From positions 1-36,829 of the forward strand of contig JAGQIK010000703.1 of NCBI GenBank assembly GCA_020431405.1: DNA of 36,829 nucleotides, read 5' to 3'. A model generated the notes under the pieces. That model made no database searches. It saw nothing but the letters and a program-made list of their open reading frames with translations, and was not told the DNA's origin. This DNA comes from Myxococcales bacterium (lineage in GTDB: Bacteria; Myxococcota_A; Polyangia; GCA-2747355). A program made the position numbers and the translations under genes. Shown here in pieces: positions 19,926-28,784 of this stretch; position 1 is the first letter of the stretch, and each line of letters opens with the position of its first letter.

Positions 19926-20468
19926 CTAGTGCTTCATGTGACCGCTGGCCTTGCCCTTGTGCGTGCCGCCGATGATCTGTCCGCAGCTGAGCATCTTCGC
20001 GCCGTAGTAGGGGTTGCGGATCTTGGCGTCGGTCTGCAGCCAGCTGCCCTTGGCCATCGAGCAGAAGACGACGTTGACGCCCGCTGGCTTGGACATGGTC
20101 ACCCACATCGCCATCGGCCGCGAAAGCTCCTTGAAGGCGTCGCGCGCCGTGGCGAGCGACTTGGCGCCGGCGAGCTTCTTGGCCGCCGCGCGGATCTTCT
20201 TCGGCAGCGAAGCGTAGTGCGCCTTGTGCTGGCCCTTGACGGTCTCGGGCTTGACCTTCGTCGCCAGCTTGGCGATGCGCTTGCCCGCCGCGGCGACGCC
20301 GGACAGCTTGTCCGAAGCCAGCGCGTCGTGAATGCGCATGTACTGCGCGAGCAGCGGCTTCATCGAGCGATCGAACGTCGCCGTCCCCGACGACGCGGCG
20401 TGACTGTCGCTGCAAAGCGCGACGACGAGCAGGCTCGAAGCGAGCGCGACGAGATTACGCGTGTTCAT
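19926..20468 (-). CDS. Periplasmic DUF3347 protein of the copper operon
   Basis: A 180-residue exported protein. ATG 20468 lies six bases after GGAGG, a better start than the ATG touching that site at 20474. The signal peptide ends SHA-A. The mature part fits DUF3347, a domain found fused to or beside CusB-type adaptors: an all-helical region (LAQYMRIHDALASD ... ATARDAFKELSRPM), then FCSMAKGSWLQ and NPYYGAKMLSCG. Candidate metal ligands are Cys136, Met138, Met159, Cys162 and the His/Met tail. It overlaps the end of the cusA-like gene by 14 bases, so it belongs to the operon. It may carry copper or silver ions to the pump; that role is inferred from family and position. Confidence 0.82.
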   Translation of the reverse strand: MNTRNLVALASSLLVVALCSDSHAASSGTATFDRSMKPLLAQYMRIHDALASDKLSGVAAAGKRIAKLATKVKPETVKGQHKAHYASLPKKIRAAAKKLAGAKSLATARDAFKELSRPMAMWVTMSKPAGVNVVFCSMAKGSWLQTDAKIRNPYYGAKMLSCGQIIGGTHKGKASGHMKH

Positions 20469-23400
20469 GATCATCCTCCGTGCCGGCGCTGTCGGCCGTC
20501 TCTAATACGGCAGCCTCGCTGGCGTGCGCGCGCGCTGGCGCGAGCGTGGACGCCGCGGGCTGTCGGTTTATTGCGATGCCGCGCCACAGCAAATACAGCG
20601 CGGGCAAGATCACGAGGGTTAGCAGGGTCGACGAGATCAGGCCGCCGACCATCGGCGCCGCGATGCGCTTCATCACGCGCGCCCCCGTCTCGGAGCCGAA
20701 CATCACCGGCAGCAGGCCGATCAGCGTGGTCGCGACGGTCATCAGCTTGGGGCGCACGCGATCGACGGCGCCCTCGGTGATGGCTTGCTCGAGCGCGGCG
20801 CGGTCGACGAGGCGTCCGCTCTCGCGATAGCGCTCGTAGGCCTCGTCGAGATAGACGAGCATCACCACGCCCGTCTCGGCAGCAAGGCCGGCGAGCGCGA
20901 TGAAACCCACGCCGACGGCGACGGACATGTTGTAGCCGAGCGCGAACATCAGCCACACGCCGCCGATCAGCGCGAAGGGCAGCGTGAGCATCACCATGCT
21001 GGTCTCGACGACGTTGCGAAAGTGGGCGTAGAGCAGCAAGAACACCACCGCGAGCGTCAGCGGCACCACCAGCGCGAGCCGCTTGTTGGCCCGCTGCATG
21101 TACTCGAACTGGCCGGACCAGACGATCGAGACGCCGGGAGGCAGCTTGACCTGCCGTTTGACGGCGGCCTTGGCGCGGCGCACGTAGCCGCCGATGTCGG
21201 ACGTCTTGATGTCGACGTAGATCCACGCCGTGCGGCGCGCGTTCTCGCTCTTGATGGCGGGCGGGCCCTTGGCGACCTTGATCGTCGCGACCTGCCCGAG
21301 CGGCACGGTGTGACCCATCGGCGTGGGGATCGGGATGCTGCGCAGCTTGGCCAAGTTGTTGCGAAGCTCGCGCGGGAAGCGCACGTTGACCGGGTAGCGC
21401 TCGAGCCCTTCGACGGTCCAGGTCACGTTCATGCCGCCGAGCGCGCTCTTGATCACGTCCTGTACGTCGCCGACGGTCAGGCCGAAGCGCGCCGCGTCGC
21501 CACGCTTGATGTTGATGTTGATGAAGTTGCCGCCGACCACGCGCTCGGAGTAGGCCGACAGCGTCTCGGGCAGCACGCGCACGACGGCCTCGATCTTCTC
21601 GCCGATGGCAGAGAGCTGCTCGAGGTTCGAGCCGAGCAGCTTGATGCCCACGGGCGTCTTGATGCCCGTCGCCAGCATGTCGATGCGCGTCTTGATCGGC
21701 ATCGTCCAGGCGTTGGTCACGCCCGGAAACTGCACCATCTTGTCGAGCTCCTTGATGATGTCCTCGATGCTCTTGCCCGCTGGCCATGTCTTCTTGTCGG
21801 TGAGGATGATCGTCGTCTCGATCATCGACAGCGGCGCGGGATCGGTGGCGGTGTCGGCGCGGCCGATCTTGCCCAACACGTGTTTGACCTGCGGATGCTT
21901 GGCGATGAGCTTGTTGGTCTGCTGCAGCAGCTCTTTGGCTTTGGTGATACTGATGCCGGGCGGCGTCGTCGGCATGTAGAGCAGATCGCCTTCGTTGAGC
22001 GGCGGCATGAACTCGGAGCCGAGCTTGCTGAAGGGATAGACCGTCGCGGCGACCGCGAGAAGCGCGACAAAGACGGTGGCCTTGGGGAAGCGCAGCACGC
22101 TGCGGATCACCGGGCGATAGACCCAGATGAAGAAGCGGCTGATCGGGTTGGCGGCTTCGCTGCGGATCTTGCCGCGCACGAAGTAGTACATCAGCACCGG
22201 GATGATCGTGATCGCCAGCAGCGACGAGGCAGCCATGGCGAACGTCTTGGTGTACGCCAGCGGCGAGAACATGCGCCCTTCCTGCTGCTGCAACGAAAAG
22301 ACGGGCAGGAAGCTGACGGTGATGATGACCAGCGAGAAGAACAGCGCCGGACCGACCTCGCGCGCGCTGCGCACGACCAGCTCGGCTTGCGAGAGGTTGA
22401 GGTCGCGCTCTTTGTGCTTGTGCAGGTTCTCGACCATCACCACCGACGCGTCGACCATCACGCCGATGGCGATGGCGATGCCGCCGAGGCTCATGATGTT
22501 GGCGTTGATGCCGAGCAGGCGCATCACGAGCAGCGAGGCGAGGATGCCCACCGGCAGCGTGACGATGGCGACAAACGCCGAGCGGAAGTGCAGAAGGAAG
22601 ATGATGCAGATCAGCGCGACGACGGCCATCTCTTCGAACAGCTTGTGCTCGAGCGTGGTCACGGCGCGCTCGATCAGCGCCGAGCGGTCGTAGGAGGTGT
22701 GGATCTCGACGCCGGCCGGCAAGCCAGCCTTGAGCTCCTCGAGCCGCTTCTTGACGCGCTCGATGACCTCGAGCGCGTTTTCTCCGAAGCGCATCACGAC
22801 CACGCCGCTGACGACCTCGCCTTTGCCGTTCATCTCGGCGAGGCCGCGCCGGATCTCGGGGCCGAGGTGCACGTCGGCAACCTGCGAGAGCAAGATCGGC
22901 GTGTGCGTCTTCATGTCGACGCCGATCGGCACCTTCTTGAGGTCGTCGACGGACTTGAAGTAGCCCTGTCCGCGCACCATGTACTCCGTCTCGGCCATCT
23001 CGATCAGACGACCTCCGACGTCCATGTTGGAGCGGGCGATGGCGCGCTTGACCTTGGCTAACGGCACGTTGAACGCGCGCAGCTTCTCGGGGTCGACCTC
23101 GACCTGATACTGGCGCACGAAGCCGCCGAGGCTGGCGACCTCGGCGACGCCGCGCAGCGCCATCAGCTCGTAGCGCAGGTACCAGTCCTGCAGCGAGCGC
23201 AGCTGTGCGAGGTCGTGCTTCTTGGAGACGAGCGTGTACTGGTAGACCCAGCCGACCCCGGTGGCGTCAGGGCCGAGCTGCGGCGTGGCGCCTTCGGGCA
23301 GACGCTTCTGCACGAAGTTGAGGTATTCGAGCACGCGCGAGCGCGCCCAGTAGAGGTCGGTGCCGTCCTCGAAGATCACATAGACCAGCGAGAAGCCGAA

Positions 23401-23661
23401 GAACGAGTAGCCGCGCACCACCTTGGCGTAGGGCACCGACAGCATCGCCGTGGTCAGCGGGTAGGTGACTTGATCCTCGACAACCCGCGGGTCTTGTCCG
23501 TTGTGCTCGGTGAAGATGATCACCTGCACGTCGGACAGATCGGGGATCGCGTCGACGGGCGTCGTGAAGAGGGCCCACACGCCGCCGAGCACGACCATCG
23601 CCGTGACGACGATCACGAAGAAGCGATTGCGGACGGAGCCCTCGATGATCCACTTGATCAT
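20455..23661 (-). CDS. cusA: CusA-like heavy-metal RND efflux pump
   Basis: A 1068-residue inner-membrane proton antiporter of the HME-RND family, which exports Cu(I)/Ag(I) from the periplasm and cytoplasm through the TolC channel. The N-terminus has the family sequence TTPVDAIPDLSDVQVIIFTE. The three methionines known in E. coli CusA (M573, M623, M672) are present at Met563 (LLYMP), Met613 (PLSMIET) and Met662 (RIDMLATG), all with a constant offset, which supports copper/silver rather than Zn/Co specificity. The proton-relay Asp is Asp404 (VMVDASVVMVENLHKH), and RVRPK and AAETGVVML contain the relay Lys and Glu. The C-terminus ends in an acidic/His tail (EDDHEHA). It follows the adaptor gene by two bases. 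Confidence 0.95.
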   Translation of the reverse strand: MIKWIIEGSVRNRFFVIVVTAMVVLGGVWALFTTPVDAIPDLSDVQVIIFTEHNGQDPRVVEDQVTYPLTTAMLSVPYAKVVRGYSFFGFSLVYVIFEDGTDLYWARSRVLEYLNFVQKRLPEGATPQLGPDATGVGWVYQYTLVSKKHDLAQLRSLQDWYLRYELMALRGVAEVASLGGFVRQYQVEVDPEKLRAFNVPLAKVKRAIARSNMDVGGRLIEMAETEYMVRGQGYFKSVDDLKKVPIGVDMKTHTPILLSQVADVHLGPEIRRGLAEMNGKGEVVSGVVVMRFGENALEVIERVKKRLEELKAGLPAGVEIHTSYDRSALIERAVTTLEHKLFEEMAVVALICIIFLLHFRSAFVAIVTLPVGILASLLVMRLLGINANIMSLGGIAIAIGVMVDASVVMVENLHKHKERDLNLSQAELVVRSAREVGPALFFSLVIITVSFLPVFSLQQQEGRMFSPLAYTKTFAMAASSLLAITIIPVLMYYFVRGKIRSEAANPISRFFIWVYRPVIRSVLRFPKATVFVALLAVAATVYPFSKLGSEFMPPLNEGDLLYMPTTPPGISITKAKELLQQTNKLIAKHPQVKHVLGKIGRADTATDPAPLSMIETTIILTDKKTWPAGKSIEDIIKELDKMVQFPGVTNAWTMPIKTRIDMLATGIKTPVGIKLLGSNLEQLSAIGEKIEAVVRVLPETLSAYSERVVGGNFININIKRGDAARFGLTVGDVQDVIKSALGGMNVTWTVEGLERYPVNVRFPRELRNNLAKLRSIPIPTPMGHTVPLGQVATIKVAKGPPAIKSENARRTAWIYVDIKTSDIGGYVRRAKAAVKRQVKLPPGVSIVWSGQFEYMQRANKRLALVVPLTLAVVFLLLYAHFRNVVETSMVMLTLPFALIGGVWLMFALGYNMSVAVGVGFIALAGLAAETGVVMLVYLDEAYERYRESGRLVDRAALEQAITEGAVDRVRPKLMTVATTLIGLLPVMFGSETGARVMKRIAAPMVGGLISSTLLTLVILPALYLLWRGIAINRQPAASTLAPARAHASEAAVLETADSAGTEDDHEHA

Positions 23662-23663
23662 GG

Positions 23664-25127
23664 CTATGGCTTCTTCGGCTTGCTCTTGCTCTGGGGCTTG
23701 CGCTTGACGAGCTTCATGCCGCAGATCGGGCAGTCGCCCGGCTTGGCTTCGCTGATCCGCGGGTGCATCGGACAGGTGTAGTCGGCCTCGTGCTTGGACG
23801 ACGCCGGTGGCTTCTTGGCCGCGCTCGCCGGCAAGGGGGCGTTGCCGTTGCCGCGCTTTGCCTGCAGGCGTGTGGCGATGAGCTTCTGCACGGCCTCGCG
23901 GAGCTGGCTCTCCGAGTCGAGCAGGAACTGACCCGAGACGACGACGGTCTCGCCGTCGGTGAGACCCGACTTGACCTCCGTGAGGTGGTCATCGGCGATC
24001 ATCCCGGTGGCGACTTGGCGCGCCTCGTACTTGCCGATGCCGCGCGTGACGAAGACGAGTTGCCGCTCGCCGGAGTGGATGATCGCCTCGGTGGGGATGG
24101 CGAGCACGTCCTTCTTGGCGCGCGTCTTGATGCGCACCGTCGTGAACATGCCGGGCTTGAGGCGAAGCTTGGGGTTGACGAACTCGAGGCGCACCGTGAG
24201 CGTGCGCGTGCGCTCGCTGAGCGTCGGATAGATGTAGCTAACCTTGCCCTGGTAGAGCTTTCCGAGCTGAAACGACAGCTCCATCGTCGCGGGTTGGCCG
24301 ACCTCGATCCACGGCGCCTGAAACTCGTAGACCTGGACGTGGACCCAGATCGCGCTCAGCTTGCCGATGCGAAAGAGGTCCTGACCCGCCATCGCGCGCG
24401 TGCCTTGCACGATGCTCTTGTGCAGCACGTAGCCCGATCGCGGCGCGCGGATCGTCAGCGTGCGCCGCGCTTTGCCGCGCTTGACGATGGCGGCGATCAT
24501 GCGGTCGGAGAGATCCCACAGCTTGAGCTTGGTGTGCGCGGCGCGCGCCAGCGGCGTGTCCGTGCTCTTGGTGGCGCGCACGGCGAGCAGATACTCCTCC
24601 TGTGCCGAGACCAGCTCCGGCGAGTAGATGCTGAACAGCGCCTGGCCGGCGCGCACGCGCACGCCGGTCTTGTCGACGTAGAGGCGCTCGATCCAGCCCG
24701 AGAACTTGAGGTTGACGACCGAGAGCTTGTCTTCGGCGACGACGACCTCGCCGATGGTGCGCACCTCGCGCGTGAGGTCGCGTCGTTTGACCTTGGCGAC
24801 GCGCACACCCATGTTCTGCACGACGACCGGATCGATAGTCAGCGTCTTGCTGCTAGCTGCGCCCTTGGCGCCGCCGCCGCCGCCGGTGCTCGACTTCATC
24901 GGCGTCAGATCCATGCCGCAGATGGGACACTTGCCCGGTCCCTCCTGCACCACGTTGGGGTGCATGCCGCAGGTATAGAGCGTCTTCTTGTCTTTGCCTT
25001 GCGCGTGGGCGTGCTCTTGGCCGGGCAGCGCCTCGCGCGAGCTCGGGACGAGCTGCCACGCGAGCAGCAGCGCGATGGCTGCGAGGGGTAGGGCGAGCAG
25101 GAAGCGGCGTTTGGCTAGCGTTGACAT
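23664..25127 (-). CDS. cusB: CusB-like periplasmic adaptor with two heavy-metal-binding domains
   Basis: A 487-residue membrane-fusion protein linking pump and channel. ATG 25127 is chosen because it gives a short basic start and one hydrophobic segment, and avoids overlapping the upstream gene; an ATG at 25151 is in frame. Residues about 51-73 are a heavy-metal-binding domain (YTCGMHPNVV, CPICGMDLTP). The adaptor core follows: barrel-sandwich hybrid (GEVVVAEDKLSVVNLKFSGW), helical hairpin and beta barrel (GMFTTVRIKT, IPTEAIIHSG). A second heavy-metal-binding domain sits at the C-terminus (about 450-473; YTCPMHPR, CPICGMKL). Having this domain at both ends is unusual. The operon and pump support a Cu/Ag role. 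Confidence 0.92.
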   Translation of the reverse strand: MSTLAKRRFLLALPLAAIALLLAWQLVPSSREALPGQEHAHAQGKDKKTLYTCGMHPNVVQEGPGKCPICGMDLTPMKSSTGGGGGAKGAASSKTLTIDPVVVQNMGVRVAKVKRRDLTREVRTIGEVVVAEDKLSVVNLKFSGWIERLYVDKTGVRVRAGQALFSIYSPELVSAQEEYLLAVRATKSTDTPLARAAHTKLKLWDLSDRMIAAIVKRGKARRTLTIRAPRSGYVLHKSIVQGTRAMAGQDLFRIGKLSAIWVHVQVYEFQAPWIEVGQPATMELSFQLGKLYQGKVSYIYPTLSERTRTLTVRLEFVNPKLRLKPGMFTTVRIKTRAKKDVLAIPTEAIIHSGERQLVFVTRGIGKYEARQVATGMIADDHLTEVKSGLTDGETVVVSGQFLLDSESQLREAVQKLIATRLQAKRGNGNAPLPASAAKKPPASSKHEADYTCPMHPRISEAKPGDCPICGMKLVKRKPQSKSKPKKP

Positions 25128-25134
25128 GAGCTCC

Positions 25135-26469
25135 CTAGGGTTGCCTTCCAAGGCCAGGCGGGGCCTTCCTGAGCGCCTTTCCGACGAGCGCTTCGACGTT
25201 GACGCGGGCGATCCAAGTCGTCAGGCGGGCGCGGCGAATGACGCGCTCGAACTCGAGCAGCTGAAGCTCTGCCTGATAGAGCGCGGCGAAGTCGGTGCGG
25301 TCGACCTGATAAGACGCGAACGTCGCGTCGAGCGCCTTGTGCGCGAGCGGCATCAGTGTTTGTTCGTAGGTGCGTGCTTTCTGGTGGGCGCGGCGCCAGG
25401 CGGCGAGCTCGCGCCCGAGCGCGCCGCGAATGCGATCGAGCGCGCTCGAGCGATCGGCGAGCGCGGCGCGTGCGAGCGCCTCGCTGGCGTGCCGTTCGCT
25501 GCCAGCGCGGCGCTTGTACCAGAACGGGATCGGCACCGAGACGCCGACGCCGATGAAGTCGGTGCCGCTGTCGGTGCTCGCGAAGCGCAGTCGATAGCCG
25601 AGCCACGCGGTGAAGTCGGGATAGCCCTCGCGTGCGGCGCTGCGTGCGGCGAGCCGGCGTGTGCGGCTGACCTCGGTCTGTTGGCGCAGCGCGGGCCGGT
25701 GCGCGCTGGCGAGCTCGGCCAGCTTGGCGGCCGTCGCCTTGGGGGCGGCGGCGGCGGCGAGACTGCTGGGCGTGACGATCGGCGTGCGCGCGCGATGAAG
25801 CGCCGCGTCGATGGTGGCGGCGAGCGCGCGCTCGTCGCGCTCGAAGTTCTTCAGGTCGTCACGCAGCTTCTGCGCGAGCACCTGCAGCCGTAGATAGTCC
25901 TGCTGTCCGGCCTTGCCGACCTGGTACTTGATGCGGACCACGTCGGTGAACTGATCGACGAGCTTGACGTGCTGCTCGGTGACCGAACGCAGCTGCCGCA
26001 CCAGCACGAGCTTGTAGTAGGCGCGCTTGACGAGCGCTCGCAGCTGCAGCGCGAGCTCGTCGAGGGCTGCGCGCGTCTCGCGCACGCGCCCGCGGCCGAC
26101 CTCCTGGCGCAGCCCGACCTTGCCGGGGAACGGAAACGTCTGCTGCAGCTTGAACTGGATGCCGGCCATCGGGTGGGTGCCGGGCCGCCAGGCGTCGATG
26201 GGCATGTTGCTGTACTCGACGGCGACCTGCGGGTCGGGCCAGGCGCTGGCCCTGCGCACGCGCTGCTCGAGCGCCGTGATGCGCGCCCTCATGGCGGTGA
26301 TCGAGGGGTTGGCGGAGACAACGCGCGAGGCGAGGGCGGCGGCGAGCTGCTCGTGGTTCGCCGCCGCGCTGGGCTCGGCGAGCGCCGGGGCCGCGGCGAA
26401 GACGGCCGCTGCGAAGACGGCCGCGGCGACGAGAAGCAAGGTCGAGATCCGAGGGGTTGGAGGCTGCAT
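25135..26469 (-). CDS. cusC: TolC-family outer-membrane channel of the copper efflux system
   Basis: A 444-residue exported protein (signal peptide core LLLVAAAVFAAAVFAAAP with a small internal repeat). The mature sequence is two long coiled-coil/barrel repeats typical of TolC/CusC: NPSITAMRARITALEQRVRRA, then LALQLRALVKRAYYKLVLVR, and in the second half AHKALDATFASYQVDRTDF. It would form the outer-membrane trimer through which CusBA exports copper or silver. No strong ribosome site is seen; ATG 26469 and a TTG six codons upstream are both possible, and ATG is preferred for the better signal peptide. It is the first gene of the operon, and the adaptor gene starts seven bases after its stop. 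Confidence 0.9.
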   Translation of the reverse strand: MQPPTPRISTLLLVAAAVFAAAVFAAAPALAEPSAAANHEQLAAALASRVVSANPSITAMRARITALEQRVRRASAWPDPQVAVEYSNMPIDAWRPGTHPMAGIQFKLQQTFPFPGKVGLRQEVGRGRVRETRAALDELALQLRALVKRAYYKLVLVRQLRSVTEQHVKLVDQFTDVVRIKYQVGKAGQQDYLRLQVLAQKLRDDLKNFERDERALAATIDAALHRARTPIVTPSSLAAAAAPKATAAKLAELASAHRPALRQQTEVSRTRRLAARSAAREGYPDFTAWLGYRLRFASTDSGTDFIGVGVSVPIPFWYKRRAGSERHASEALARAALADRSSALDRIRGALGRELAAWRRAHQKARTYEQTLMPLAHKALDATFASYQVDRTDFAALYQAELQLLEFERVIRRARLTTWIARVNVEALVGKALRKAPPGLGRQP

Positions 26470-26470
26470 C

Positions 26471-26563
26471 GCTGCGGAGCAAAGCAACTGCAGGACCAGG
26501 ACATGGCAATTGGGCGCGCGGCCGTAATGGCCTGTAATCGCTTTGCTATGTCGACTCCGCAGC
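26471..26563 (-). promoter_or_regulatory. Possible mRNA hairpin at the cusC start
   Basis: In the minus-strand transcript, the bases directly before ATG 26469 (26471-26485) can pair with two upstream segments, 26540-26547 and 26555-26563, separated by a seven-base bulge. About 15-16 pairs result, and they would bury the translation start region, which lacks an obvious ribosome site. It could be a translational control element. Complementarity of this length could also be chance. Confidence 0.3.
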
Positions 26564-26732: not shown

Positions 26733-26754
26733 GACCTCGCAGGAGGTCCGCCCC

Positions 26755-27315
26755 GTGTCCAGAACAAGCGCACGTCTCTTCGCCGCAAACCTCACCGTCG
26801 CCGCGCTGCTGCTCGCCGCGTGTGGCGGCGACACCGTCAGCCGGCCGCCGGTCACGCCCGACGGTCCCTTCGGCACGCAGCTCGGTCTGACGGTCAACAA
26901 CATCGAGCTGCCCGACTGCGCCGAGCAGCTTCACGACCTGCATCACTTCTACAAGCAGGGTGACGGCCTGCTGGTGGTGATGACCATGGGCGTTGGCTGA
27001 AAGACCTGCGGCGAGGTGAGCAGTTGGCTCACCCAGACCGTCAGGCCGCAGTTCCCGCGCGTCGGCGTGGTGGAGCTTCTCGACGGCGCCTTCAAAGACG
27101 GACAGCAGTCGGTCGAACGCTGCAACGCCTGGGTCACGCAGAACGCCACGTCGCACATGATCTTGCGCGACACCCTGGGCGCCGGGTCGGCTGCCGAGAC
27201 GCTCGAGCTGCCACCGCACCAGGCCATCCTCACCGACGGCAACCTGCGCATCGTATGGCGCGGCGACTTCGACGAATACGCGACCATGCAGGGCGAGCTG
27301 GCAAAGCTCAAGTAG
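26755..27315 (+). CDS. Thioredoxin-like lipoprotein, probable selenoprotein (in-frame TGA as Sec82)
   Basis: A 186-residue lipoprotein if TGA 26998-27000 is read as selenocysteine. GTG 26755 lies eight bases after a perfect AGGAGG, and the signal peptide ends LLAAC, a lipobox. The mature region begins like a TlpA/AhpC-type thioredoxin fold (LGLTVNNIELPDCAEQLHDL, then the beta strand GLLVVMTMGVG). TGA follows at once, then KTC: a U-x-x-C in place of the family's C-x-x-C, with Cys85 as partner. The same frame continues coding-like for about 100 more residues (QFPRVGVVELLDGAF; PHQAILTDGNLRIVWRGDF) to TAG at 27313-27315. A SECIS-like hairpin directly follows the TGA. The role would be a thiol-disulfide or peroxide reductase on the periplasmic side. 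It is followed 60 bp later by a GST-like gene. Confidence 0.82.
27001..27051 (+). promoter_or_regulatory. Bacterial SECIS-like element
   Basis: Immediately after TGA 26998-27000, GGTGAGC (27015-27021) and GCTCACC (27027-27033) form a perfect 7-bp stem with apical loop AGTTG. A lower stem pairs CTGCGGC (27006-27012) with GCCGCAG (27045-27051) across an asymmetric internal loop. The loop begins 21 bases after the TGA and has G in its second position, in keeping with the general bacterial SECIS pattern. In such RNA the loop is bound by SelB to insert selenocysteine. Confidence 0.65.
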
Positions 27316-27375: not shown

Positions 27376-27954
27376 ATGTCCAAGCCGATCACTCTCTTCG
27401 GATTCGCCCCCAGCACGTATACCCGCAGCGCGCGTATGGCCTGCATCGAGGCCGGCGTCGCGCACCAGCTCGCGCCGCTCGAATTCAAGCAGCCGAGCCA
27501 TCTCGCGCTGCACCCGTTTGGCAAGATGCCGGCGCTCTCGCACGGCGACGTCGTGCTCTACGAGACGCTCGCCATCTGCAGCTACGTCGACTCGCTGGCC
27601 GCCGGCGAGCTGCTCGGCGGCGACGACGCGCTCGCGCGCGCGCGCGTGCTCGGCTGGTGCAGCGTGGCCATCGACTACAGCTACCCCGCGCTGGTCAGCC
27701 CGCTGCACGACGAGCGCATCGCGGCCGAGGCGCGCGCGGCGGCGCGAGCGCACCTCGAGACCCTCGACGGCCTCGTCGACGAAGCGACGTTTCTCGTCGG
27801 CGGGGCGCCGACGCTCGCCGACCTGATGCTCTACCCGATGGTCGAGTTTGCCGCGGGCAAGCTGGGCGCCTCGGCGTTCGAGGGCCTGCCGTCGCTGTTG
27901 CGCTGGCGCGCCGCCGTTGCCGACCGCCCGTGCGCGCGCCAGACTGCGCCGTGA
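27376..27954 (+). CDS. Glutathione S-transferase-like protein
   Basis: A 192-residue cytoplasmic protein with the GST fold. The N-terminal thioredoxin-like domain has a start strand (ITLFGFAPSTYTRSARMACIEAG), the LHPFGKMPAL segment with the cis-Pro loop, and a YETLAICSYVD glutathione-contact helix. The C-terminal helical domain has the conserved TLADLMLYPMVEFA capping region. The usual catalytic Tyr/Ser is probably Ser13 or Tyr15. AAAGGAG (27361-27367) precedes the ATG. It lies 60 bp after the selenoprotein gene, and its stop overlaps the start of the ECF sigma gene (TGATG), so the three genes probably form one redox-related operon. Confidence 0.87.
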   Translation: MSKPITLFGFAPSTYTRSARMACIEAGVAHQLAPLEFKQPSHLALHPFGKMPALSHGDVVLYETLAICSYVDSLAAGELLGGDDALARARVLGWCSVAIDYSYPALVSPLHDERIAAEARAAARAHLETLDGLVDEATFLVGGAPTLADLMLYPMVEFAAGKLGASAFEGLPSLLRWRAAVADRPCARQTAP

Positions 27955-28784
27955 TGACGACGATGCATGACGATCTGCAGGCCGCTCAGCGGGGCGACCG
28001 CGCCGCGTTCGAGCGACTCTTCGCCGAGCACATCCCCACGCTGCGCGGCGTGCTGCGCCGCATGGTGGGCCACCCAGACGACGTCGACGAGCTGGCGCAG
28101 CAGGCGCAGCTTCAGGCCTTCGAGTCGATCGCCGCGTTTCGCGGCGACGCGCGCCCTGCGACCTGGCTCTGCGCCATCGGCACGCGGCTGGCGATCGATC
28201 ACCTTCGCCGGCGCGAGCGCTGGCGCGAGCGGGCGCAGGTGATCTATGCCGCGTCGTGTCTCGAATCGGAGGCGCTCGCCGCCGACATCGGCGCTGCGTT
28301 CGGTGACGAGGCGTATCGTTACGACGTGCGCGAGCACATCGCCTACTGCTTCACCTGCGTGGGGCGTACGCTCGAGCCGGAGGCACAGGCGGCGCTCGTG
28401 CTGCGCGACGTGCTCGAGCTGTCAAACGACGAGGCGGCCAAGGCGCTCGACCTCTCGCGCTCGGTGTTTCGCCATCAGCTCGCCGCCGCGCGCGAGACGA
28501 TGCAGCGCGTCTACGACGGCCTCTGCGCGCTGGTCAGCAAACGCGGCATCTGCTGGCAGTGCGCGGGGCTTCGTGACGCGTCGCCGCCCGAGCGCCGCGG
28601 CCCGCCGGCGCCCGCCACACTCACTTGGCCGGAACGGCTGCGCACGGTGCGCGAGGCCAATCTCGATCGCGGCACGGCGCGCGCGCTGCACGACGTGTTC
28701 TTCAGGCACACCGAGGTGCAGGAGCGCGAGGGGCGTGTCGCGTCGCGCGAGACGACGCTCTGCGGGCATCCAAGCGACGAGTAA
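27954..28784 (+). CDS. ECF-type RNA polymerase sigma factor with Cys-rich C-terminal extension
   Basis: A 276-residue sigma factor. Region 2 (about 17-90) has the helix pair HPDDVDELAQQAQLQAFESI and the DNA-melting/-10 segment FRGDARPATWLCAIGTRLAIDHLRR. Region 4 (about 143-185) ends in a helix-turn-helix (LSNDEAAKALDLSRSVFRHQ). The protein is longer than most ECF factors. CFTC (Cys132-Cys135) lies just before region 4, and after it come Cys191 and CWQC (Cys200, Cys203) with a roughly 70-residue tail. These CxxC pairs suggest a metal or redox switch, and no anti-sigma gene is adjacent. It overlaps the GST stop by one base, so thiol or oxidative stress control of the operon is a reasonable guess, not shown by sequence. 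Confidence 0.88.
   Translation: MTTMHDDLQAAQRGDRAAFERLFAEHIPTLRGVLRRMVGHPDDVDELAQQAQLQAFESIAAFRGDARPATWLCAIGTRLAIDHLRRRERWRERAQVIYAASCLESEALAADIGAAFGDEAYRYDVREHIAYCFTCVGRTLEPEAQAALVLRDVLELSNDEAAKALDLSRSVFRHQLAAARETMQRVYDGLCALVSKRGICWQCAGLRDASPPERRGPPAPATLTWPERLRTVREANLDRGTARALHDVFFRHTEVQEREGRVASRETTLCGHPSDE

Follow-up and report, generated by a model that had tools for sequence, protein, structure and literature searches.

A putative selenocysteine-containing thioredoxin-like lipoprotein encoded beside Cus-like efflux genes in a Myxococcales bacterium

The window (the whole stretch of DNA analysed, 36,829 nucleotides) carries on its forward strand a gene (26755-27315) interrupted by a single in-frame TGA. 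Judged from the DNA and its relatives, this gene most probably (probability about 0.88) encodes a selenoprotein lipoprotein acting as an extracytoplasmic thiol-disulfide oxidoreductase of the TlpA/ResA-like kind. The original prediction of a probable selenoprotein with a U-x-x-C motif is supported by a Cys/Sec alignment column, by the selenocysteine machinery of the same genome and by a SECIS-like hairpin just downstream of the codon.

Reading frame, paralogues and the TGA codon

The gene starts with GTG at 26755, 8 nt downstream of a Shine-Dalgarno-like AGGAGG (26741-26746), and stops with TAG (27313-27315), thus specifying 186 residues if the only internal stop, TGA (26998-27000), is read as selenocysteine 82; 104 coding residues follow it in the same frame. 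G+C by codon position was 0.70/0.46/0.85 on the 5' side of the TGA and 0.64/0.45/0.90 on the 3' side, and both halves of the gene therefore look coding in one frame. The predicted signal peptide (26755-26823) ends in a lipobox L-A-A-C (residues 20-23), which agrees with the pattern [LVI][ASTVI][GAS]C in the translation and predicts lipidation at Cys23 (codon 26821-26823); A22 and C23 are invariant among the window protein and its two close paralogues. The ribosome site and the lipobox before the TGA, and the roughly 100 protein-like residues after it, were all recovered as originally described. The active-site context is MGVG-U-KTC, with the redox motif U-K-T-C (Sec82 and Cys85, 26998-27009) of the U-x-x-C type; residues 82 and 85 are invariant in two family alignments, and the usual Trp ahead of the active site is absent from the window protein.

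The source genome (11.2 Mb, 95.7% complete, 733 contigs) contains two full-length relatives of the window protein, on contigs C574 and C101, respectively, with which it clusters on a quick family tree with a support of 100. The paralogue on C574 has TGA in the aligned column (NKGS-U-SSC) and that on C101 has Cys (KDEA-C-EAC) and is free of internal stops. A third, more distant paralogue on C119 (G000:C119:16540-17031, L061), belonging to the CPPxGPFG subfamily, again has TGA (RGS-U-GSC), so that of the three paralogues in this genome, two have TGA and one has Cys aligned with Sec82. The placing of the TGA exactly where a redox Cys is expected, which had been claimed from the window alone, is hence borne out by these copies.

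Family counts here and below rest on the best 10 candidates scored per genome in profile searches at class and phylum level. At class level, 46 of the 318 genomes searched contained relatives. Alignment of the first 48 members put the first residue of the active site in a single column throughout (11 TGA and 37 Cys), and all 48 aligned through this position; homologues ending at the TGA, which would have counted against the original prediction, were not seen among them. Across the phylum, probably Myxococcota, 113 family domains were analysed, of which 49 had TGA and 64 had Cys in this column.

Selenocysteine machinery and the SECIS-like hairpin

The genes selA, selB, selC and selD, proposed earlier as a check, were all found in the source genome: tRNA-Sec with the anticodon TCA (68.9 bits), selB (353 bits), selA (553 bits) and selD (G000:C59:2976-3902, L074; 359 bits). 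The selD gene has an in-frame TGA of its own (CAG-U-ASK), at what we take to be the position where SelD proteins carry Sec or Cys, and would thus itself be a selenoprotein gene with TGA at the active site. With the best 10 candidates per genome scored and the genomes not independent of each other, selA and/or tRNA-Sec was present in all 29 genomes with TGA members. A selA match was obtained in 28 of these 29 (in three of the 28 only as fragments below cut-off), and the remaining genome (G141) has tRNA-Sec at 69 bits. The corresponding figure for genomes in which only Cys members were seen was 28 of 58 (p 3e-6, under the same sampling of 10 candidates and the same non-independence).

A bacterial SECIS-like hairpin (27005-27045, forward strand) with the apical loop AGUUG (27022-27026) lies directly behind the codon; its minimum free energy was -23.9 kcal/mol with a z-score of -4.4 (segment 26999-27045). 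Published rules for bacterial SECIS elements ask for a loop of 3-9 nt, a stem of 4-16 bp, a distance of 16-37 nt from the UGA, a folding energy of at most -7.5 and a G within the first two loop positions (PMC13188914, a 2026 review). The window hairpin, with its AGUUG loop, a 7 bp upper stem and a gap of 21 nt between UGA and loop, fits them. In the C574 copy the loop is GGU and its spacing almost identical; the energy of this hairpin is unremarkable (z -0.9). In the family set (best 10 candidates per genome), the general rules were satisfied by 44 of 49 TGA domains vs 37 of 64 Cys domains. A hairpin whose loop lies 19-24 nt from the codon and starts with G-G/U was found in 37 of 49 TGA vs 3 of 64 Cys domains (Fisher 6e-16, a p-value that is indicative only, since the narrow spacing was chosen after inspection of the TGA set). 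When the TGA genes were shuffled synonymously, this narrow hairpin occurred in 13 on average and in 20 at most, against the 37 observed. In the 113 family domains, total folding energy was no different in TGA genes than in Cys genes and was dropped as a SECIS signal; the position of the hairpin and its loop sequence did separate the two groups.

A genuine stop at this codon, a fault of assembly or sequencing, or a decayed gene, with an 81-residue fragment as product, is a very improbable reading of the TGA. The fragmented assembly (733 contigs) could be cited for it, but the coding signal continues unchanged past the TGA, the genome possesses the Sec machinery, and this position is held by TGA or a Cys codon in the paralogues and in dozens of relatives. 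Chance, error or a dead gene is unlikely because each would have needed to produce a TGA repeatedly, always at this one codon; by the same comparison, a misreading of TGT or TGC as TGA is very unlikely, given the TGAs in the same column within the genome and in dozens of others. Decoding as another amino acid (e.g. Trp), through a changed code or leaky readthrough, can be practically neglected: no supporting point was found, relatives have Cys in the aligned column, and a tRNA-Sec with the anticodon UCA is accompanied by selA, selB and selD. Selenocysteine at residue 82 is the preferred reading, and from it we infer actual selenium incorporation.

Fold, genomic neighbourhood and proposed function

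The window protein had no Pfam match, and no NCBIfam model reached its cut-off. A paralogue (P0003) matched AhpC-TSA at E 2.4e-4, below cut-off, and more distant relatives matched AhpC-TSA and Redoxin above cut-off. An AF2 model built from 22 sequences reached a pLDDT of 67.8 (80-90 in the core blocks), a modest confidence, the alignment being made of relatives about 15% identical; the single-sequence model was poor (pLDDT 44). The 22-sequence model matched the structures of ResA, DsbE-like proteins and FetE at Z values (VIA) of about 13, with 12.9-14.6 to ResA and DsbE-like proteins, and for ResA (1st9) with a Foldseek probability of 1.00 and a Z of 12.9. The profile of the relatives, compared with solved structures, retrieved ResA and the lipoprotein Etrx2 at E about 4e-9. 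Relatives' profile and modest-confidence model together point to a thioredoxin fold of the TlpA/ResA type, in line with the thioredoxin-like nature first suggested for the protein.

Divergent from the gene, on the reverse strand, lie CusA/CusB/CusC-like heavy-metal RND efflux genes (20455-23661, 23664-25151 and 25135-26487, with Pfam ACR_tran, HlyD_D23 plus HMBD, and OEP, respectively). Downstream on the forward strand, and possibly co-transcribed, is a glutathione S-transferase family gene (27376-27954; GST_N/GST_C), whose stop is overlapped by the start of an ECF-type sigma factor gene (27954-28784; Sigma70_r2/r4). The copy on C574 adjoins a DUF6029 protein and a Cys-type TlpA and that on C119 adjoins DUF4388/TPR genes, so metal-resistance neighbours occur at the window locus only, among the three Sec copies of this genome. 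The copper efflux genes noted beside the gene at the outset are indeed there, but as the C574 and C119 copies lie among unrelated genes, the link to copper is not a shared feature, and a copper-specific role was dropped.

It is improbable that Sec-x-x-Cys serves as a metal ligand, handling copper with the adjoining Cus-like proteins, and not as a redox centre. The divergent efflux genes and the ties of many selenoproteins to metal resistance (PMC13188914) speak for this role, while the other Sec copies stand apart from metal genes and the fold and relatives are those of thiol-disulfide oxidoreductases. A Sec-dependent peroxidase (peroxiredoxin/PrxQ-like) in place of a disulfide reductase is unlikely, too. 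PrxQ/Bcp and AhpE structures were also among the fold matches of the model (Z 11-12.5), and some relatives match AhpC-TSA and Redoxin, as described above; the motif, however, is UxxC at the thioredoxin position, and the 48 structure-profile matches listed, headed by ResA and lipoprotein thioredoxins, include no peroxiredoxin.

As a thiol-disulfide oxidoreductase, the protein may work as follows. At the UGA of residue 82, SelB would bring in Sec-tRNA(Sec), and the hairpin just 3' of this codon would direct insertion, yielding the full-length lipoprotein of 186 residues. After export and lipidation at Cys23 the protein would be tethered to a membrane outside the cytoplasm, probably the outer one in view of the Gly at +2. 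Within the TlpA/ResA-type fold, Sec82 would be the attacking nucleophile and Cys85 the resolving residue; fed with electrons by a membrane thiol relay, the protein would act on other extracytoplasmic proteins and reduce their disulfides or related oxidised groups. The role of an extracytoplasmic thiol-disulfide reductase is proposed by analogy to the pneumococcal Etrx lipoproteins, anchored thioredoxins that can supply a methionine sulfoxide reductase (PMC3914529).

Relation to known systems and spread of the family

Catalogued UxxC selenoproteins include the 'Prx-like thiol:disulfide oxidoreductase' (PF00578), the 'Thiol-disulfide isomerase-like' (cd02966), the 'Redoxin family protein' (PF08534) and the 'UGC-containing TlpA' (PMC13188914, Table 1), the last with UGC as its motif. 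With such members of the AhpC-TSA/TlpA superfamily on record, this kind of selenoprotein is already known; the window protein shares with them the broad superfamily and Sec as the first residue of a thioredoxin-type UxxC. It differs in having no Pfam match, in lacking the Trp before Sec and in being a predicted lipoprotein. The original remark that an extracytoplasmic lipoprotein with Sec beside a copper efflux operon was not recognised from known families thus needs refining as to superfamily and U-x-x-C chemistry; the lipoprotein subfamily and its phylum-wide use look new, though the subfamily may overlap with the catalogued Redoxin or isomerase-like families. The words lipoprotein and myxo- do not occur in the main text of the selenoprotein catalogue papers searched. 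A search for literature on selenocysteine in myxobacteria returned nothing relevant, a weak absence with most subscription journals outside its coverage.

With ResA, TlpA and CcmG-DsbE the window protein has in common the predicted fold, the second active-site Cys and a conserved P153, likely the cis-proline; unlike them, it has Sec for the nucleophilic Cys, is about 15% identical, and no link to cytochrome c maturation was seen. Etrx1 and Etrx2 of Streptococcus pneumoniae, which are among the profile and fold matches, are likewise extracytoplasmic lipoproteins (a prediction for the window protein) with a TlpA/ResA-like fold, but they are Cys-only, Gram-positive and partnered by CcdA and SpMsrAB2 (PMC3914529).

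The wider phylum search added many more members, including FWUGSC and WUPSC forms. On the quick family tree the Sec/Cys label switches at least 9 times, 5 switches being forced by well-supported branches. In two close pairs, substitutions downstream of the TGA were synonymous vs other in 13 vs 9 and 28 vs 25 codons, respectively, a mild bias. A crude lipobox pattern was found in 18 of 48 Sec and 32 of 53 Cys members, which says little, as many heads are cut or have unresolved starts. We tentatively suggest, at somewhat below even odds, that these anchored thioredoxin-like lipoproteins, phylum-wide, often multi-copy and repeatedly Sec/Cys-switching, constitute an undescribed selenium-dependent extracytoplasmic redox system of Myxococcota-like bacteria. 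Automated annotation would end such genes at the TGA and conceal the active site; in this group a sizeable selenoproteome has thus probably been missed. The many switches within one family offer a natural test of the benefit of Sec to an extracytoplasmic thiol enzyme, and the clear SECIS-like hairpins of the Sec forms offer one of SECIS gain and loss inside coding sequence.

A scan of named genomes with the alignment of the window protein and its close paralogues gave no relatives, and a plasmid search gave no match. The same scan with one subfamily alignment gave 19 loci, mostly from MAGs of uncultured Deltaproteobacteria/Proteobacteria, and one more distant match labelled Myxococcales. Some public MAGs with family genes bear the name Klebsiella pneumoniae or Bifidobacterium breve in their titles (L130, L131, L134 and L137), which look mislabelled. 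The genomes G490 (L105-L107) and G454 (L118) contain several Sec copies each, partly in tandem, which suggests a lineage-specific expansion of these Sec proteins. Beside several Sec copies in L118, the ORF from base 817 encodes a member of the family whose active site lacks both Cys and Sec (GASQDGPT). In G102, a different UxxC thioredoxin-like protein (ATF-U-PVC; L041, forward strand, ORF from base 2) adjoins a Cys-type family member.
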